Assembly: GCA_017540825.1 (NCBI GenBank)
Contig: JAFYAH010000046.1
Coordinates: 1-35,623, forward strand
Direction of reading: 5' to 3'
DNA length: 35,623 bases
DNA from: Candidatus Methanomethylophilaceae archaeon
GTDB taxonomy: Archaea > Thermoplasmatota > Thermoplasmata > Methanomassiliicoccales > Methanomethylophilaceae
In this document: piece by piece, positions 13,255 to 25,522 of the stretch
How positions within the stretch are numbered: the stretch's first letter is position 1
How the letters are laid out: every line of letters starts with the position of its first letter
The notes under the pieces: model-generated
The model's input: only the letters and a program-made list of their open reading frames with translations
Told to the model about the DNA's origin: nothing
Database searches by the model: none
Translations under genes and position numbers: made by a program

Positions 13255-14553
13255 ATGGGATACAGGAAGTGCCTCACCGCCGAAGCCGACATCGGCATGC
13301 GCAACTACCTGTGCGAGGCCGACGGCACCGGCGGGCATCTGAAGACGGAGCCCGAGGACTTCGTCGTCAGGGAGATCTCTGACCCTCCCAGGGCCAAGGA
13401 GAACGGGGACTACACCATCGCGACCGTCTCCTCCCGCAACTGGGAGACCAACAGGCTGGTCAGGATGCTCTCCCGCAGCCTCGGGATATCCAGGGAGAGG
13501 ATAGGGTTCGCGGGGACCAAGGACAAGAGGGCGGTCACCACCCAGCTGATGTCCTTCTACGGCAGCCCGGACCTGGGCAAGGTGGACCTGAAGGACGTGT
13601 CCGTCAGCGGGGCCTACAGGGGCGCCAGGGGCATACAGATAGGCGACCTCATCGGGAACTCGTTCGAGGTCACCGTCAGGGACTGCTCCGTCCCCATGGG
13701 CGAGGCGGAAGGCATAATCGCGTCCGACGTGGCCGACATAAAGAAGGCCGGAGGGTTCCCCAACTACTTCGGCGTCCAGAGGTTCGGGGTCGTCAGGCCG
13801 GTCACCCACCTCGTGGGGGAGAGGATCGTCCGCGGGGACTTCGAGGGAGCGGTCAGGACGTACATATCGTACTCCACCCCGGAGGAGGAGCCGGAGCTCA
13901 GGGAGAAGAGGAGGGAGCTCGAGGGGAGGGACGACTGGAAGGACATGCTTCCCGGGATCCCGGAGAGCATGTCGTACGAGAAGATGATGATAGGCGCCCT
14001 TGCGGACGGCGGGAGCTGGACCGACGCCATAGAGTCGCTGCCCACCAACCTCCAGATGATGTTCGTCCATGCGTACCAGTCGTACCTCTTCAACGAGATG
14101 CTGAGCATGAGGATGGACGCGGGGCTTCCGCTGAACATGCCGGTCGAGGGCGACATGGTGATCCCCCTGGACCAGAACGGGAACCCGGAGCACGAGAACC
14201 CCATACTGACGACCTCCAGGAACATAGACCTGGTCGCCAGGCAGGTCCGCGCCAAGAGGGCGTTCGTCACCATCGCCCTGTTCGGGACCGACAGCGTCCT
14301 GGCGGAGGGGGAGATGGGCGAGATCGAGAGGAAGGTCGTAGAGGAGCAGAGGCTGTCCCAGGAGGACTTCAACATCCCCGAGCTCCAGAGGTGCAGCTCG
14401 AAAGGCATCCGGAGGGAGGTCCTGTGCCCGCTGAAGGACCTGAAGAGCTCGGTCGGAGAGGACAGCTACACCCTTTCGTTCTCCCTGCCCAAGGGCAACT
14501 ACGCGACCTGCCTGCTCAGAGAGTTCATGAAGTCCGAGATGAGGGACTACTGA
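13255..14553 (+). CDS. truD: tRNA pseudouridine synthase TruD
   Basis: This 432-residue protein is an archaeal TruD/Pus7-type enzyme that isomerises uridine to pseudouridine, classically at position 13 of tRNA. The catalytic motif is FAGTKDKRAVTTQ with Asp90. Other hallmarks are HLKTEPEDFVVREI near residue 28, NYFGVQRFG near 168, and a TRUD insertion domain in the middle, followed by FVHAYQSYLFNEML near 268. Archaeal members are longer than E. coli TruD, and this length fits. The ATG starts 5 nt after the rpoL stop, so the two are almost certainly co-transcribed. Confidence 0.95.
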   Translation: MGYRKCLTAEADIGMRNYLCEADGTGGHLKTEPEDFVVREISDPPRAKENGDYTIATVSSRNWETNRLVRMLSRSLGISRERIGFAGTKDKRAVTTQLMSFYGSPDLGKVDLKDVSVSGAYRGARGIQIGDLIGNSFEVTVRDCSVPMGEAEGIIASDVADIKKAGGFPNYFGVQRFGVVRPVTHLVGERIVRGDFEGAVRTYISYSTPEEEPELREKRRELEGRDDWKDMLPGIPESMSYEKMMIGALADGGSWTDAIESLPTNLQMMFVHAYQSYLFNEMLSMRMDAGLPLNMPVEGDMVIPLDQNGNPEHENPILTTSRNIDLVARQVRAKRAFVTIALFGTDSVLAEGEMGEIERKVVEEQRLSQEDFNIPELQRCSSKGIRREVLCPLKDLKSSVGEDSYTLSFSLPKGNYATCLLREFMKSEMRDY

Positions 14554-16996: not shown

Positions 16997-18772
16997 ATGG
17001 TCGGCTACCCCGTAGGAATAAGCAGCTTCGAAAAGCTGGTCGACAAAGGCTATCCCTTCGTGGACAAATCCATGATCATAGCCGACCTGATAGACAGCGG
17101 AAGAGAGGTTACCCTTTACACCAGGCCGAGAAGGTTCGGGAAAAGCCTGAACCTCAGCATGATAGAATGCTTCTTCGACATCTCTCGCAGAGGAAAAAAG
17201 GACCTCTTCGAGGGACTGAGGATTGAGCGCTCCGACAGATACGACCTCTGCTACAAGAAAGAGCAGTGCGCACACCCTGTGATCCGCCTGTCCTTCGCCG
17301 ACATAGACGTCAGCACCGTAGAATCGTTGGAGAGCAGCATGCGCAACCTCGTCTCTATGGTTGCTGAAAAGGTTCGCAAGCAGATCCTGCCGCTGAACAC
17401 GGACGAACTGGACCTCGAAAGGATAGAGAGGTACTCCAGAAAGGACATAGAAAGGGAAGAGATGATCTCGTCGATGCACGAGCTGTGCAGGATACTCTCC
17501 GAGACCTTCGGATCCAGAACGATAGTCCTCATCGACGAGTACGACCGCCCGTTCCAAGCAGGAATACGCATGGATCATTCGGACCCGCGCAAGACCCTGC
17601 TGAGCTCCTTCATGACCAAGACGCTGAAGGACAACGACCACCTGGAATTCGGCGTCATGACCGGAATAATACGGCTATCGAACGCCGGTATCCTCAGCGG
17701 ATTGAACAACATCTTCGTATCGGACATATTCTCCCATTCCGGACAGGAGTTCTTCGGGATCACAGAGGATGAAGCGATAAACCTCTTGGGAAGCGATTCC
17801 GAAAAAGACCTGGAGACCCTGAAAGAATGGTATGACGGCTACAGGTTCGGAGACGCGAACGTGTTCAATCCGTGGAGCATCATGTGCTTCCTCGACAACG
17901 GACGCCGGCCTGAACCCTACTGGGACGCGGACTCCCAGAACTACGCGTTCGACAGGCAGTTCATGTCCGCCCCCGGCAGCGTTACAGACAAGATATCGAA
18001 GCTCTTCGACGGAAAGGACGAGAGCGTCGTGTACGCTATCGACCGTACCATGGACTATGAGTCCGGACCGTTCGCTGAGGATCGCCAGAAGATTTTCTAC
18101 ACGTTCTTAGCCATGACGGGATACCTGAAGGCGATCCCTCTGTCCATGGAAGGCGGTAGTCCTCTATGCAGGCTTTCCGTGCCGAACAAGGAGGTGAAGT
18201 TCCGCTACAGCGACCTCATTGCCAGAACCAGGCTGTCACATGCGTCGGCATTCGTAGAGCGCGTCTTGCAAAGAGACGAGGCAGGAGCCTCGGTCGAGAT
18301 CGAAAAGATATTCCACGGGCTCAGCTACGACGACGGGCTGGATCACGACACGCTCAAAAGAATGCTGACGATGCACCTGGGCTCGCTGGGATACGACGCG
18401 ACGGACGAGCAGAGGCGCATGTTCGGAGACATCGACATCCTGCTGTCTCTGAGGAACGGCATGCAGGCGGTGATCGAGCTGAAGACCAGCAAAAAGACAT
18501 CGGCCAGACCGGATGCGCTGGCTATAGAAGCCGTCGACGACGTCAGAAGGAAAGGCATTGCCCGGAATCCCTACGGAACCGCTGTAATGACCATAGGCTT
18601 GGGCGTCTGCCCGTCAGGCTTTTCAGCGAAGATAGAGCGAGTGGCCGCTCGCTACAGCCATGAACGAACCTATCATATCCAGGGACGGCATGGAAGCCGC
18701 ATCTGGCCCTGGCCATCAGAATCGAAATGGCCCCCGACCAGGCTCACGCATAACGATCTACTTCAGGAATAG
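16997..18772 (+). CDS. AAA-ATPase with C-terminal PD-(D/E)XK nuclease-like domain (AAA-ATPase_like/DUF1703)
   Basis: This 591-residue protein begins with the family signature YPVGISSFEKLVDKGYPFVDK. Walker A follows in RPRRFGKSLNLS (Lys49), and Walker B in IVLIDEYDRP (Asp180, Glu181). The C-terminal DUF1703 domain has a PD-(D/E)XK core, GDIDILLSL with Asp480 and VIELKTSK with Glu494 and Lys496. These proteins occur in many divergent copies in anaerobic bacteria and some archaea, and a mobile or defence role is suspected but unproven. It separates thiS from thiG, although nothing in its sequence suggests thiamine chemistry. Codon use is less GC-biased than that of its neighbours. It ends with TAG, after which the same frame stays open into thiG. 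The last 30 residues look unconserved. Confidence 0.9.
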   Translation: MVGYPVGISSFEKLVDKGYPFVDKSMIIADLIDSGREVTLYTRPRRFGKSLNLSMIECFFDISRRGKKDLFEGLRIERSDRYDLCYKKEQCAHPVIRLSFADIDVSTVESLESSMRNLVSMVAEKVRKQILPLNTDELDLERIERYSRKDIEREEMISSMHELCRILSETFGSRTIVLIDEYDRPFQAGIRMDHSDPRKTLLSSFMTKTLKDNDHLEFGVMTGIIRLSNAGILSGLNNIFVSDIFSHSGQEFFGITEDEAINLLGSDSEKDLETLKEWYDGYRFGDANVFNPWSIMCFLDNGRRPEPYWDADSQNYAFDRQFMSAPGSVTDKISKLFDGKDESVVYAIDRTMDYESGPFAEDRQKIFYTFLAMTGYLKAIPLSMEGGSPLCRLSVPNKEVKFRYSDLIARTRLSHASAFVERVLQRDEAGASVEIEKIFHGLSYDDGLDHDTLKRMLTMHLGSLGYDATDEQRRMFGDIDILLSLRNGMQAVIELKTSKKTSARPDALAIEAVDDVRRKGIARNPYGTAVMTIGLGVCPSGFSAKIERVAARYSHERTYHIQGRHGSRIWPWPSESKWPPTRLTHNDLLQE

Positions 18773-21384: not shown

Positions 21385-21457
21385 GCAGCTGTGATCTAGC
21401 TGGTTAGGATCTGAGCCTTCCAAGCTCATTGCCCGGGTTCGAATCCCGGCGGCTGCA
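21385..21457 (+). tRNA. tRNA-Gly (anticodon UCC)
   Basis: The full cloverleaf folds by eye. The acceptor stem GCAGCTG/CGGCTGC has one G-U pair, the D-stem is ATCT/GGAT with loop AGCTGGTTA, and the anticodon stem is TGAGC/GCTCA. The anticodon loop CTTCCAA gives UCC, reading GGA and related glycine codons. The T-arm is CCGGG-TTCGAAT-CCCGG with a four-base variable loop, and the discriminator base is A at 21457. CCA is not encoded. No intron is present. It follows tenI and precedes two accessory-looking genes. Confidence 0.95.
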
Positions 21458-21550
21458 CTCATCTTTCTTGATTCCCTCATCTGGAGCGGCATTTCCATGC
21501 GGCGGCTGATGCTCAGAAGCGTGATGCCTTGATTCGGACAGGGAATTGCC

Positions 21551-22696
21551 ATGGAATACGACCTGATGCACAAGGACACGAGAGTCCTCCAGATGAGCCT
21601 GGACGAAGAGAGCGGCCTGATCGGATCCATCGAACGCGTGTACTCCATCGAGCATCTCCCCGTCGGGACGTTCCAGGACGGCCTGATGAACGGCAACGAC
21701 CTCAGGAAGTGGTGGGCCAGAAGATCCATTCCAGCCAGCCGCAGCGGCATCGGGGATGTGCTATACAGCCTGGACATCCCATGCGCCACGGCGCTTCTAC
21801 CCGGCTGCGTGGGCCTCAGCCTGTCCGACCAGTATTGGATCAGGGCATCGGGGACAGAAGCGCATTGGAAGGACGTGAACTTCTTCGACAACGGGTTCTC
21901 GGAGGACCTCGGCGACCTGATGTTCGGGAAAACCGTCGAAAGCGACATGGACCTGAACACGCCGGACAGCACCACGGACGGGGTCCTGAAGAAAAGATGG
22001 AAGATAATCGGCGGGAAGAGGTTCCTGATCAAAGCGGGAGCAGGGACGGCCATGCAGGAGCCGTTCAACGAGGCTGTGGCGTCCCTCTTGATGGACATCC
22101 TGGATGTGCCTCATGTCCCCTACAGCGTCGTCTGGTCGGACGGCCGCCCGTACAGCGTCTGCCCCGACTTCGTAGACAGGAGCACCGAGCTGGTATCCGC
22201 CTACAGCTTCATGAACAGCTATTCGAGAAGGACGGACGCGCCATACGACCGCTACGTGGACGGGTGCCGTGGTCTCGGGATAGACGTCGTTCCCGCCCTG
22301 GACCGCATGATGGCTGTCGACTTCCTGATGGCCAACGGCGACCGGCATCTGAACAACTTCGGGCTCATTCGCGATGCGGACACGCTGGAGCTCCTGGGCC
22401 CGGCGCCCATCTACGACAGCGGCTCGTCCTTCGGGCACGACCTCCTCACGAAGGAGATCCCGTCCAAGATGGGCGAATCCTGCAAGCCGTTCAAGAATAC
22501 CTTCCCGGAGCAGATGGGGCTCGTGTCCGACTTCGGATGGATCGACTTCGACGCCCTTCGCGACGCCCTCCCAGGCATCAAGGCGATCCTCTCGGCGGAA
22601 GGGTTCCTGGACGCCGCCCGCGTTGAGGCCCTGACACACCTGATGGATAGCCGCATCTCCGCCTTGGAGCGCATAGCTGGCGGAACGGCCCGCTGA
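21551..22696 (+). CDS. HipA-like protein kinase without a HipB partner
   Basis: This 381-residue protein has the HipA kinase core. The nucleotide-binding lysine is probably in FLIKAGAG (Lys161). The catalytic loop is FLMANGDRHLNNFGLIRD, with Asp264 and Asn268, and the metal-binding segment is PIYDSGSSFG (Asp289). The N-terminal 150 residues contain LRKWWARRSIPASR, seen in a stand-alone HipA-like group in gut bacteria, rather than the HipA N1 domain. Classical HipA phosphorylates GltX and is restrained by HipB. No HipB-like helix-turn-helix gene is next to this one, so its substrate and control are unknown. It lies 93 nt after the tRNA-Gly, a common site for integrated genes. The ATG at 21551 is preceded by AGGGA. 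Confidence 0.85.
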   Translation: MEYDLMHKDTRVLQMSLDEESGLIGSIERVYSIEHLPVGTFQDGLMNGNDLRKWWARRSIPASRSGIGDVLYSLDIPCATALLPGCVGLSLSDQYWIRASGTEAHWKDVNFFDNGFSEDLGDLMFGKTVESDMDLNTPDSTTDGVLKKRWKIIGGKRFLIKAGAGTAMQEPFNEAVASLLMDILDVPHVPYSVVWSDGRPYSVCPDFVDRSTELVSAYSFMNSYSRRTDAPYDRYVDGCRGLGIDVVPALDRMMAVDFLMANGDRHLNNFGLIRDADTLELLGPAPIYDSGSSFGHDLLTKEIPSKMGESCKPFKNTFPEQMGLVSDFGWIDFDALRDALPGIKAILSAEGFLDAARVEALTHLMDSRISALERIAGGTAR

Positions 22697-22763: not shown

Positions 22764-22813
22764 ACTCTGGCCATACCTCCCCTCGTTTCGGATTCTATTT
22801 CGAGGTGCTACAG

Positions 22814-25522
22814 ATGGATGGGGACAAACGGAGGAACCTGAAGATCGTCAGCGACGCCATGATGGTCCTGCAGGAACCCCTCCAGGACTACGTCATATCC
22901 GAGCTGAAGTTCATGTTCGGGGACGAATGGTGGACGAAGGGAGTCGTCGGGAGCAGGACGGCGTACCTCCCGGTGGACTTGCCTCTCAGCGAGGTGGACG
23001 AGGAGGCCGCCCGGCAGTACCTCGACTCCTCAGGATGCCTCAGCCTGGTCCGCAAGCACAGGCTGGTGCAGGGGACGACGTCCTCCGACGAGGACTCCCT
23101 GAAGAAGGTGAGCGACCTCAAGGACGTCATGCTCAGCGTCAGCAAGAAGGACTACGGCCTGCGCCAGTCCCAGGAAGCCGTCAGATGCATGATGGCCGTG
23201 GACGACCTGATGCTCCTCGACTGCCACGACAGGCTCCAGTCCCTGTACGACAGGCTGGCGGCCGACGACGGGCCGAAGACTCCCAAGAGCCCTCCCAGGC
23301 AGATCATCCTGGGCGGAGGGAGCGCCCCCGCCCCGTCCGAAGCCCCCAGCGGCCAGGTCCTCAAGACCATGGCGTTCCACGCGTGCGAGGGCATGCTCGA
23401 CAACCTGGCGATGAAGCAGGCCGGGAACTCCCAGGTGTCCAGGTTCGTCTCGGACGTCGTCGCCTGCGTCTCCAGGAACGGCGGATTCAAGCTGAAGCTG
23501 GACAAGGACCTGTTCGTGGACGACTCGCTCTGCCTGATTATAGACGGAAAGGAGTACGGGGCCACGAGAGCGTCCTTCGAAGGGTACGACAGGATGTCGA
23601 AGACCATCATGCTCTACTGCAGGGACAAGGAGCTGGCGGACGCCGTCATGTCCCATGGCTACATGCAGGTGTTCTCGGACATGAAGTGGCTCGTGGGGAA
23701 GACCCAGTCCTTCTTCGACTCCTACGGCAACAGCATCTCCTACCCGCCCGACCCCAAGATCTACGCCGCCGGGACCATGCTGACGTCCATAAACATGAAC
23801 CACTCCAGCGAGCAGATGGACGCCGTCTCCATGTCGCTGTCCAAGCCTCTGTCCTACGTCTGGGGCGTCCCGGGATCGGGAAAGACCCAGGCCGTCCTGG
23901 CCAAGGCGATCTACGAATGCGTCAAGAGGAGCGAGAGGGTGGCCGTCATAGCGCCCACCAACAACGCCCTGGAGCAGGTCATCAGAGGGCTGATCAAGGC
24001 GTTCAACAACGAGTTGGCTGACGTGAAGACCCTGGATCCCGCTAAAGACATCATGCGCATAGGCACCCCTACGGCCGAGTTCATGACCGACTATCCGAGC
24101 GTGTGCGAGCCCAGAGGCCTGCAGACGCAGCTGGAGAGGAAGGTCCAGTCCCTGAACCGCTTCCTCTGCATAAGGTCGGAGAGGAGGTACGAGTCCCTCA
24201 AGAAGGGCTGCAAGGAGGCCGTCAGGCTGGCGAGGGGCGCGAGGAACGACGAAAAGGGAAGGATGGAGGTGTACATGTCCATGAAGCCCCTGCTCGACGC
24301 CATGTCCGAGGACCCGCGCTACAGCGTCAACGCGAAGGCCACCACCCTATGGAACGCGATCCCCAACGCGGAGAGGATATACCGCCTGATCTACGACCGG
24401 GACAGGTCGCAGTTCTTCGACGAGGAGACGGTCGCGATGGACGACGCCTTCCTGGACGAGACGATAGATAAGCTCCGGGCGGAGATAGACAGCATCAGGA
24501 GGAGGAACCCCAACACGGACATCAACTCGGTGAAGATCGTCGCCATGACCCTGTCCAAGTTCATCGTCTCCTACGGGCCGTACGCCATGAACGGCAGGGC
24601 CGCCCTGGAGGTGGACCGCGTGTTCGTGGACGAGGCCGGATACTGCAACGACCTGCAGATGCTCAGCCTGTTCACGCTGAACGCCCCGATAACCATGCTG
24701 GGGGACCACATGCAGCTCCCTCCGGTGTGCGAGATAGACCGCAGGGACCTGCTGGCAGGGATAGACGAGGGCAAGGAGCACAGGTACGACTTCCTCTGGG
24801 ACCTCTCCGCCCTGTACGTAGACCACTTCTTCGACAAGAGCTCCGGCCGCCTGGCGCAGATGTACCGCGACTCCGAGGACCCGGACTTCCCGTACACTTC
24901 CCGCAGGGAGCTCACCATGACGTACAGGTTCGGCCCTAACCTCGCCAAGACCCTGGGGAAGCACGTCTACGGCCTGGACATAGGCAGCAGGTCCCCCGAC
25001 CCGCTGGACATAGAGGTCGTGGACGCCGTCCTGGACAGGTTCCCGGTGAAACGCGGGGAGGTGAGGAGGGAGAACGCCAGCGAGGCCGACGCCGTATCCA
25101 GGTACCTGAAGGACAACAGCCTGTCGGCGGACGACAGCTTCGTGATCCTGGCGCCGTACAAGGACCAGGTTAAGTGCATCAAGAAATAGTGCCCCGGATA
25201 CGAGGAGAAGGTGCTGACCATACACAAGTCGCAGGGGAGGGAATGGGACACCGTCATCATCTCCGTATGCGACTGCAGGGCCAACCCCGAGGAGAAGAAG
25301 CCCAGGTTCACCAGCACCCTGTTCGAGGAGGACGGCGCCACCCCCGGGATAAAGGTGATCAACACCGCCATATCCAGGGCCAAGAGGAAGCTGGTCCTGG
25401 TCTGCGACGTAGGATACTGGAAGAGCCTCGACGGGGAGCTCATCCGCGACCTGATAACGGGGCGACGGCAGGACGCCGCCCGGGAATCCTGGGCCTTGCC
25501 ATCCAATCAATATATAAGCTGA
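22814..25522 (+). CDS. Superfamily 1 helicase/AAA protein with an in-frame UAG (candidate pyrrolysine protein)
   Basis: The frame runs 791 codons to a TAG at 25187-25189, then 110 more codons to TGA. The first part carries Walker A VPGSGKTQ (Lys357), Walker B VFVDEAG (Asp606, Glu607), motif III LGDHMQLPPV and motif IV TYRFG (Arg705). The part after TAG carries motif V LTIHKSQGREWD (His804, Gln807) and motif VI NTAISRAKRK (Arg855). Both halves are needed for an SF1 enzyme, in the correct order and the same frame. Decoding UAG as pyrrolysine would give 902 residues. Termination would give a protein without motifs V and VI. A nonsense pseudogene is the alternative, but no other lesion is visible. 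The N-terminal 300 residues match no family I recognise. The nucleic-acid substrate is unknown. Confidence 0.8.
25187..25189 (+). other. In-frame amber codon between helicase motifs IV and V
   Basis: TAG follows the codons for DQVKCIKK and precedes CPGYEEKVLTIHKSQ. It is codon 792, in a loop that should vary in related helicases, 12 codons before the motif V histidine. No strong stem-loop is obvious just downstream. Confidence 0.75.
25509..25518 (+). promoter_or_regulatory. TATA box of the DEAD-box helicase operon
   Basis: AATATATAAG overlaps the last codons of the SF1 helicase gene and lies about 80 nt upstream of the DEAD-box start, implying a leader of roughly 50 nt. This is longer than most leaders in the window and may allow post-transcriptional control. 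Confidence 0.5.

Follow-up and report, generated by a model that had tools for sequence, protein, structure and literature searches.

The locus and the encoded protein

The window, by which is meant the whole stretch of DNA analysed (35,623 nucleotides), carries on its forward strand a helicase gene whose frame is interrupted once, by a TAG at codon 792, before its terminal TGA (Table 1). Translation agrees with the initial annotation, which had described one open frame with this TAG as its sole interruption, and both the coordinates given there and the placement of the motifs before and after it are correct. Encoded 5' of the TAG are Walker A (WGVPGSGKT), DEAGY, GDHMQLPP and TYRFG, and the regions of motifs V and VI follow 3' of it. 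The Pfam domains AAA_11 (residues 332–639) and AAA_12 (residues 750–865) were both matched above cut-off, the latter match running across codon 792.

Table 1. Positions of the features discussed. Locations without a prefix are those of the window; prefixes name other contigs or loci.
Feature	Location	Strand	Remarks
AAA-ATPase-like gene (PF09820)	16997-18772	+	TAG end at 18770-18772
tRNA-Gly	21385-21458
HipA-like kinase gene	21551-22696	+
Shine-Dalgarno-like GAGGTG	22802..22807	+	5' of ATG 22814; read from the sequence, putative role
UPF1/IGHMBP2-like SF1 helicase gene	22814..25522	+	902 codons including one in-frame TAG; ends in TGA
In-frame TAG, codon 792	25187..25189	+	predicted pyrrolysine; end of helix after motif IV
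Motif V region LTIHKSQGREWD	25214..25249	+	3' of TAG
Motif VI region NTAISRAKRK	25361..25390	+	3' of TAG
MtmB gene	C68:12870-14300		in-frame TAG at 13485-13487
tRNA-Pyl, CUA anticodon	C68:15328-15398
pyl cassette	C68:15328-19255		pylT, pylS, pylB, pylC, pylD
Dus tRNA dihydrouridine synthase	L158:5537-6568		internal TAG
Heavy-metal P-type ATPase	L153:14067-15452		TAG right after TGD motif
Phage integrase	L038:474-1460		internal TAG

On the evidence of both sequence and predicted fold, the protein is best classed as a UPF1/IGHMBP2-type SF1 helicase. Among sequences of solved structure, SMUBP-2 and NAM7/UPF1 are nearest, and a Foldseek search with the AlphaFold2 model (mean pLDDT 79) returned Ighmbp2 (E = 8.8e-23), SETX and Upf1 as best PDB matches. 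The protein shares its fold and motif order with UPF1/IGHMBP2 helicases but differs from them in an N-terminal region of its own, of about 320 residues and with no Pfam match, and it scored 64.1 bits against TIGR00376 (IGHMBP2 family helicase), far under the curated cut-off of 348.9. The first part of this region is common to few homologues only (L002-L004), and most same-genus homologues begin later in the alignment. The family is patchy, with a match in 20 of the 80 relatives searched, and has a second member in the same genome, a shorter, TAG-free paralogue on contig C59. The best homologue is 45% identical, leaving no close orthologue for dating the mutation or for dN/dS; the helicase query found no relative in a genome-contig collection, no match in phage records and distant homologues only (34–35% identity) in viral contigs.

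Just 5' of the helicase, and 3' of a tRNA-Gly, lies a HipA-like kinase gene; C43 holds a paralogue of it (51% identity). The best PADLOC match of the helicase is MkoA of Mokosh (E = 1.2e-28, residues 340–871), and both this sequence match and the kinase neighbour are reminiscent of that system, but the conserved adjacency of a kinase is not seen here. A HipA-like gene is absent beside the helicase homologues of 13 other loci; the two genes thus do not form a conserved system, and a Mokosh-like pair (type I, MkoA plus kinase) was rejected on these neighbourhoods.

The reading frame beyond the TAG

The frame beyond the TAG is not a product of chance, since its codons align with full-length helicases up to residue 881 and its identity to L002 and L003 (54.5 and 60.2%, respectively) is at the level of that between L002 and L003 themselves (60.2%). 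Its GC3 is 0.85, the genome median being 0.84, and with conservation close to that of uninterrupted homologues the 3' part is free of signs of relaxed constraint. As the TAG falls between motifs IV and V, termination there would cut off an essential part of the protein, and an SF1 enzyme that lacks motifs V and VI is expected to have no helicase activity.

Pyrrolysine decoding in the host

The analysis covered 2.33 of the 2.37 Mb of the genome. A tRNA-Pyl with a CUA anticodon was detected by ARAGORN on contig C68, as part of a complete cassette in which PylS, PylB, PylC and PylD each score above their NCBIfam curated cut-offs, so that all of the genes pylS, pylT and pylBCD on which the initial annotation had made its proposal depend are present. 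The PylS of this cassette is a protein of 273 residues without the N-terminal domain, and its nearest relatives (at most 93% identity) come from MAGs labelled Methanomethylophilaceae, Methanomassiliicoccaceae or Thermoplasmata, several of them from sheep and deer guts. The same contig carries an MtmB gene (E = 1.7e-228), the match spanning an in-frame TAG. With a full cassette and a methylamine methyltransferase gene containing an in-frame TAG, the host is a pyrrolysine-decoding organism. Given the complete cassette, it is likely, judging from sequence, that UAG 792 of the helicase is read as pyrrolysine. Of the initial proposal of a pyrrolysine-containing enzyme, readthrough thus stands as very probable, on the strength of the intact, conserved frame and the full cassette, but pyrrolysine as a functional feature of the enzyme does not.

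In-frame TAG codons across the genome

With a simple 3-periodic Markov gene caller, 1,677 genes were called, ending in TGA (1,316), TAA (203) or TAG (158). Where at least 25 open codons followed the stop, these codons were scored as coding or not: coding potential continued past the stop in 49 of 105 TAG-ended genes (47%) vs 127 of 823 TGA- or TAA-ended genes (15%; Fisher p = 3e-12), the latter baseline probably reflecting neighbouring genes that lie in frame by chance. The excess of TAG genes with a coding continuation amounts to about 33–39, and TAG remains, after correction, the terminator of ~119 of ~1,640 genes (~7%). The helicase is tenth in the ranked list of TAG-continuation genes, in which domain matches also run across the in-frame TAGs of Dus, Phage_integrase, heavy-metal P-type ATPase and HAD hydrolase genes; its TAG is an ordinary one among those of dozens of scattered genes, and the helicase is not special in this respect. 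Other candidates include several Sel1 or leucine-rich repeat proteins, and TAG-containing genes may be enriched in fast-evolving repeat proteins. Several Sel1-repeat genes with an in-frame TAG lie on contigs C8, C10, C49 and C53.

An error of assembly or base calling, the real codon being a sense codon, would be conceivable in a draft genome of 73 contigs; it is very improbable, as the readthrough excess is specific to TAG whereas random errors would yield TGA and TAA as well. TAG also occurs as a real terminator in this genome, which makes UAG decoding ambiguous, and termination must therefore compete at codon 792. Within the window, an AAA-ATPase-like gene ends in TAG with thiG next in the same frame; this TAG should terminate, since readthrough would fuse both proteins.

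The site of the TAG in homologues

Among 15 aligned homologues, none has a TAG at column 792, which reads Y, I, A, M, G, G, K, S, K, M, S, N, M, R and T and adjoins an indel. Conservation of the TAG or its replacement by Lys, Gln or Arg had been envisaged at this codon; the TAG is not conserved, and Lys and Arg do occur, among varied other sense residues. In the AlphaFold2 model, residue 792 is the last of helix 783–792, and alignment and model together suggest that the site is a hypervariable helix end and hence a permissive position, at which the side chain would presumably be exposed. Two homologues from genomes with pylS carry a TAG elsewhere: in L007 (G029 C5) it replaces, at codon 592, the otherwise invariant Gln of the motif IV PYxxQ and should be less tolerable than that at codon 792 of the window gene, and in L013 (G021) it lies at codon 334. 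Full-length homologues in G034 and G046, genomes with no pylS match above cut-off, are TAG-free; G046 also holds (L026, on its contig C1) an N-terminal piece of a helicase of this family, interrupted by a TAG at codon 15 and probably a remnant. A mid-gene TGA or TAA was found in none of the homologues examined, a TGA in L011 having been rejected as a mid-gene stop for its position near the C-terminal end (codon 697 of 716).

These comparisons bear on the possibility that the gene is a recent pseudogene, in which case the TAG would cut the helicase short after residue 791, with loss of motifs V and VI, and the 3' part would not have decayed yet. Such a state would be in keeping with the many genes of the genome that still end in TAG, with the paralogue on C59 and with a family that is dispensable, 60 of the 80 relatives searched being without a match. 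It is nevertheless unlikely: the codons beyond the TAG form an intact frame whose conservation matches that seen in relatives, mid-gene stops among homologues in pyl-positive genomes are TAG only, never TGA or TAA, and UAG should be at least partly decoded in this host.

It had also been proposed that UAG 792 is a switch, the charging of tRNA-Pyl setting the proportion of full-length helicase to an ATPase-like fragment. The position of the TAG between motifs IV and V would suit such a role, and UAG decoding dependent on carbon source has been reported for Acetohalobium arabaticum (PMC8211752; PMC4153887). However, the TAG is conserved in no homologue and lies at a variable position, the feature is common to many unrelated genes, and the RNA 3' of the TAG is not unusually stable (z = -0.65 over 104 nt from the TAG), no PYLIS-like structure being found there. 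The last result accords with the view, expressed in a review, that decoding of UAG as pyrrolysine needs no cis element (PMC8211752). Regulatory readthrough is accordingly most improbable, and the stronger form in which the UAG would sense the supply of methylamine and pyrrolysine, full-length helicase being made only with charged tRNA-Pyl and the 791-residue product having a role of its own, is more improbable still. The idea of the TAG as a functional or regulatory feature is thus not supported, in view of its absence from the site in all homologues, the hypervariability of that site and the dozens of unrelated TAG genes, and nothing specific speaks for control of the level of active helicase by tRNA-Pyl charging.

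Probable pyrrolysine at a permissive site

The reading preferred here, with a probability of about 0.82, is that the gene, from a gut archaeon of Methanomethylophilaceae type, encodes a 902-residue helicase in which UAG 792 is partly decoded as pyrrolysine, the TAG having drifted in at a permissive site and the pyrrolysine having no needed role. The tRNA-Pyl (CUA), charged by the PylS without N-terminal domain, would compete with the release factor at UAG 792 and insert pyrrolysine there, the full-length protein being made by part of the ribosomes; the incorporation of pyrrolysine, the efficiency of readthrough and the activity of the product are what we infer from an intact downstream frame, a full pyl cassette and a genome-wide excess of TAG readthrough. 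The TAG would have arisen in this lineage and been tolerated because UAG was already decoded in the host, and the variable, non-conserved site suggests that the change was presumably neutral and the pyrrolysine a product of drift. The alternative kept in the initial annotation, a nonsense mutation that is nearly neutral in a host able to suppress UAG, has thereby become the best reading: the site is variable, the TAG private and the number of like genes in the dozens.

Relation to known pyrrolysine systems

The same cassette that would act on the helicase decodes the UAG of the methylamine methyltransferases MtmB, MtbB and MttB as pyrrolysine. In these enzymes the pyrrolysine is catalytic and the TAG conserved, whereas the helicase site is variable and its TAG private to the gene. 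Archaea that read TAG codons genome-wide as pyrrolysine, with proteomic support, have reportedly been described in a 2025 study in Science. In 'Candidatus Methanomethylophilus alvus', 16 putative pyrrolysine-containing proteins other than methyltransferases were predicted (Borrel et al. 2014, PMC4153887), the TAG genes including those for a prophage-type helicase, a transporter and Cas1; TAG-free homologues were noted, and in-frame amber codons were explained as stable mutations in a background of suppression by tRNA-Pyl (PMC4153887). That archaeon belongs to the same order, and both the phenomenon and its explanation match those given here, but species and gene are different, and TAG terminators make up 1.6% there (PMC4153887) vs ~7% here. 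The helicase therefore adds an instance and not a principle, phenomenon and explanation having been published in 2014 (PMC4153887); it is neither a new kind of enzyme nor a switch, but another concrete case of the drift of UAG into sense positions in pyrrolysine-decoding gut methanogens. The genome still seems to end ~7% of its genes with UAG and is useful for the study of ambiguous UAG decoding. Gene callers using table 11 split genes of this kind, here those for the helicase, Dus, P-type ATPase and integrase, so that annotations of such genomes are systematically wrong at these places.
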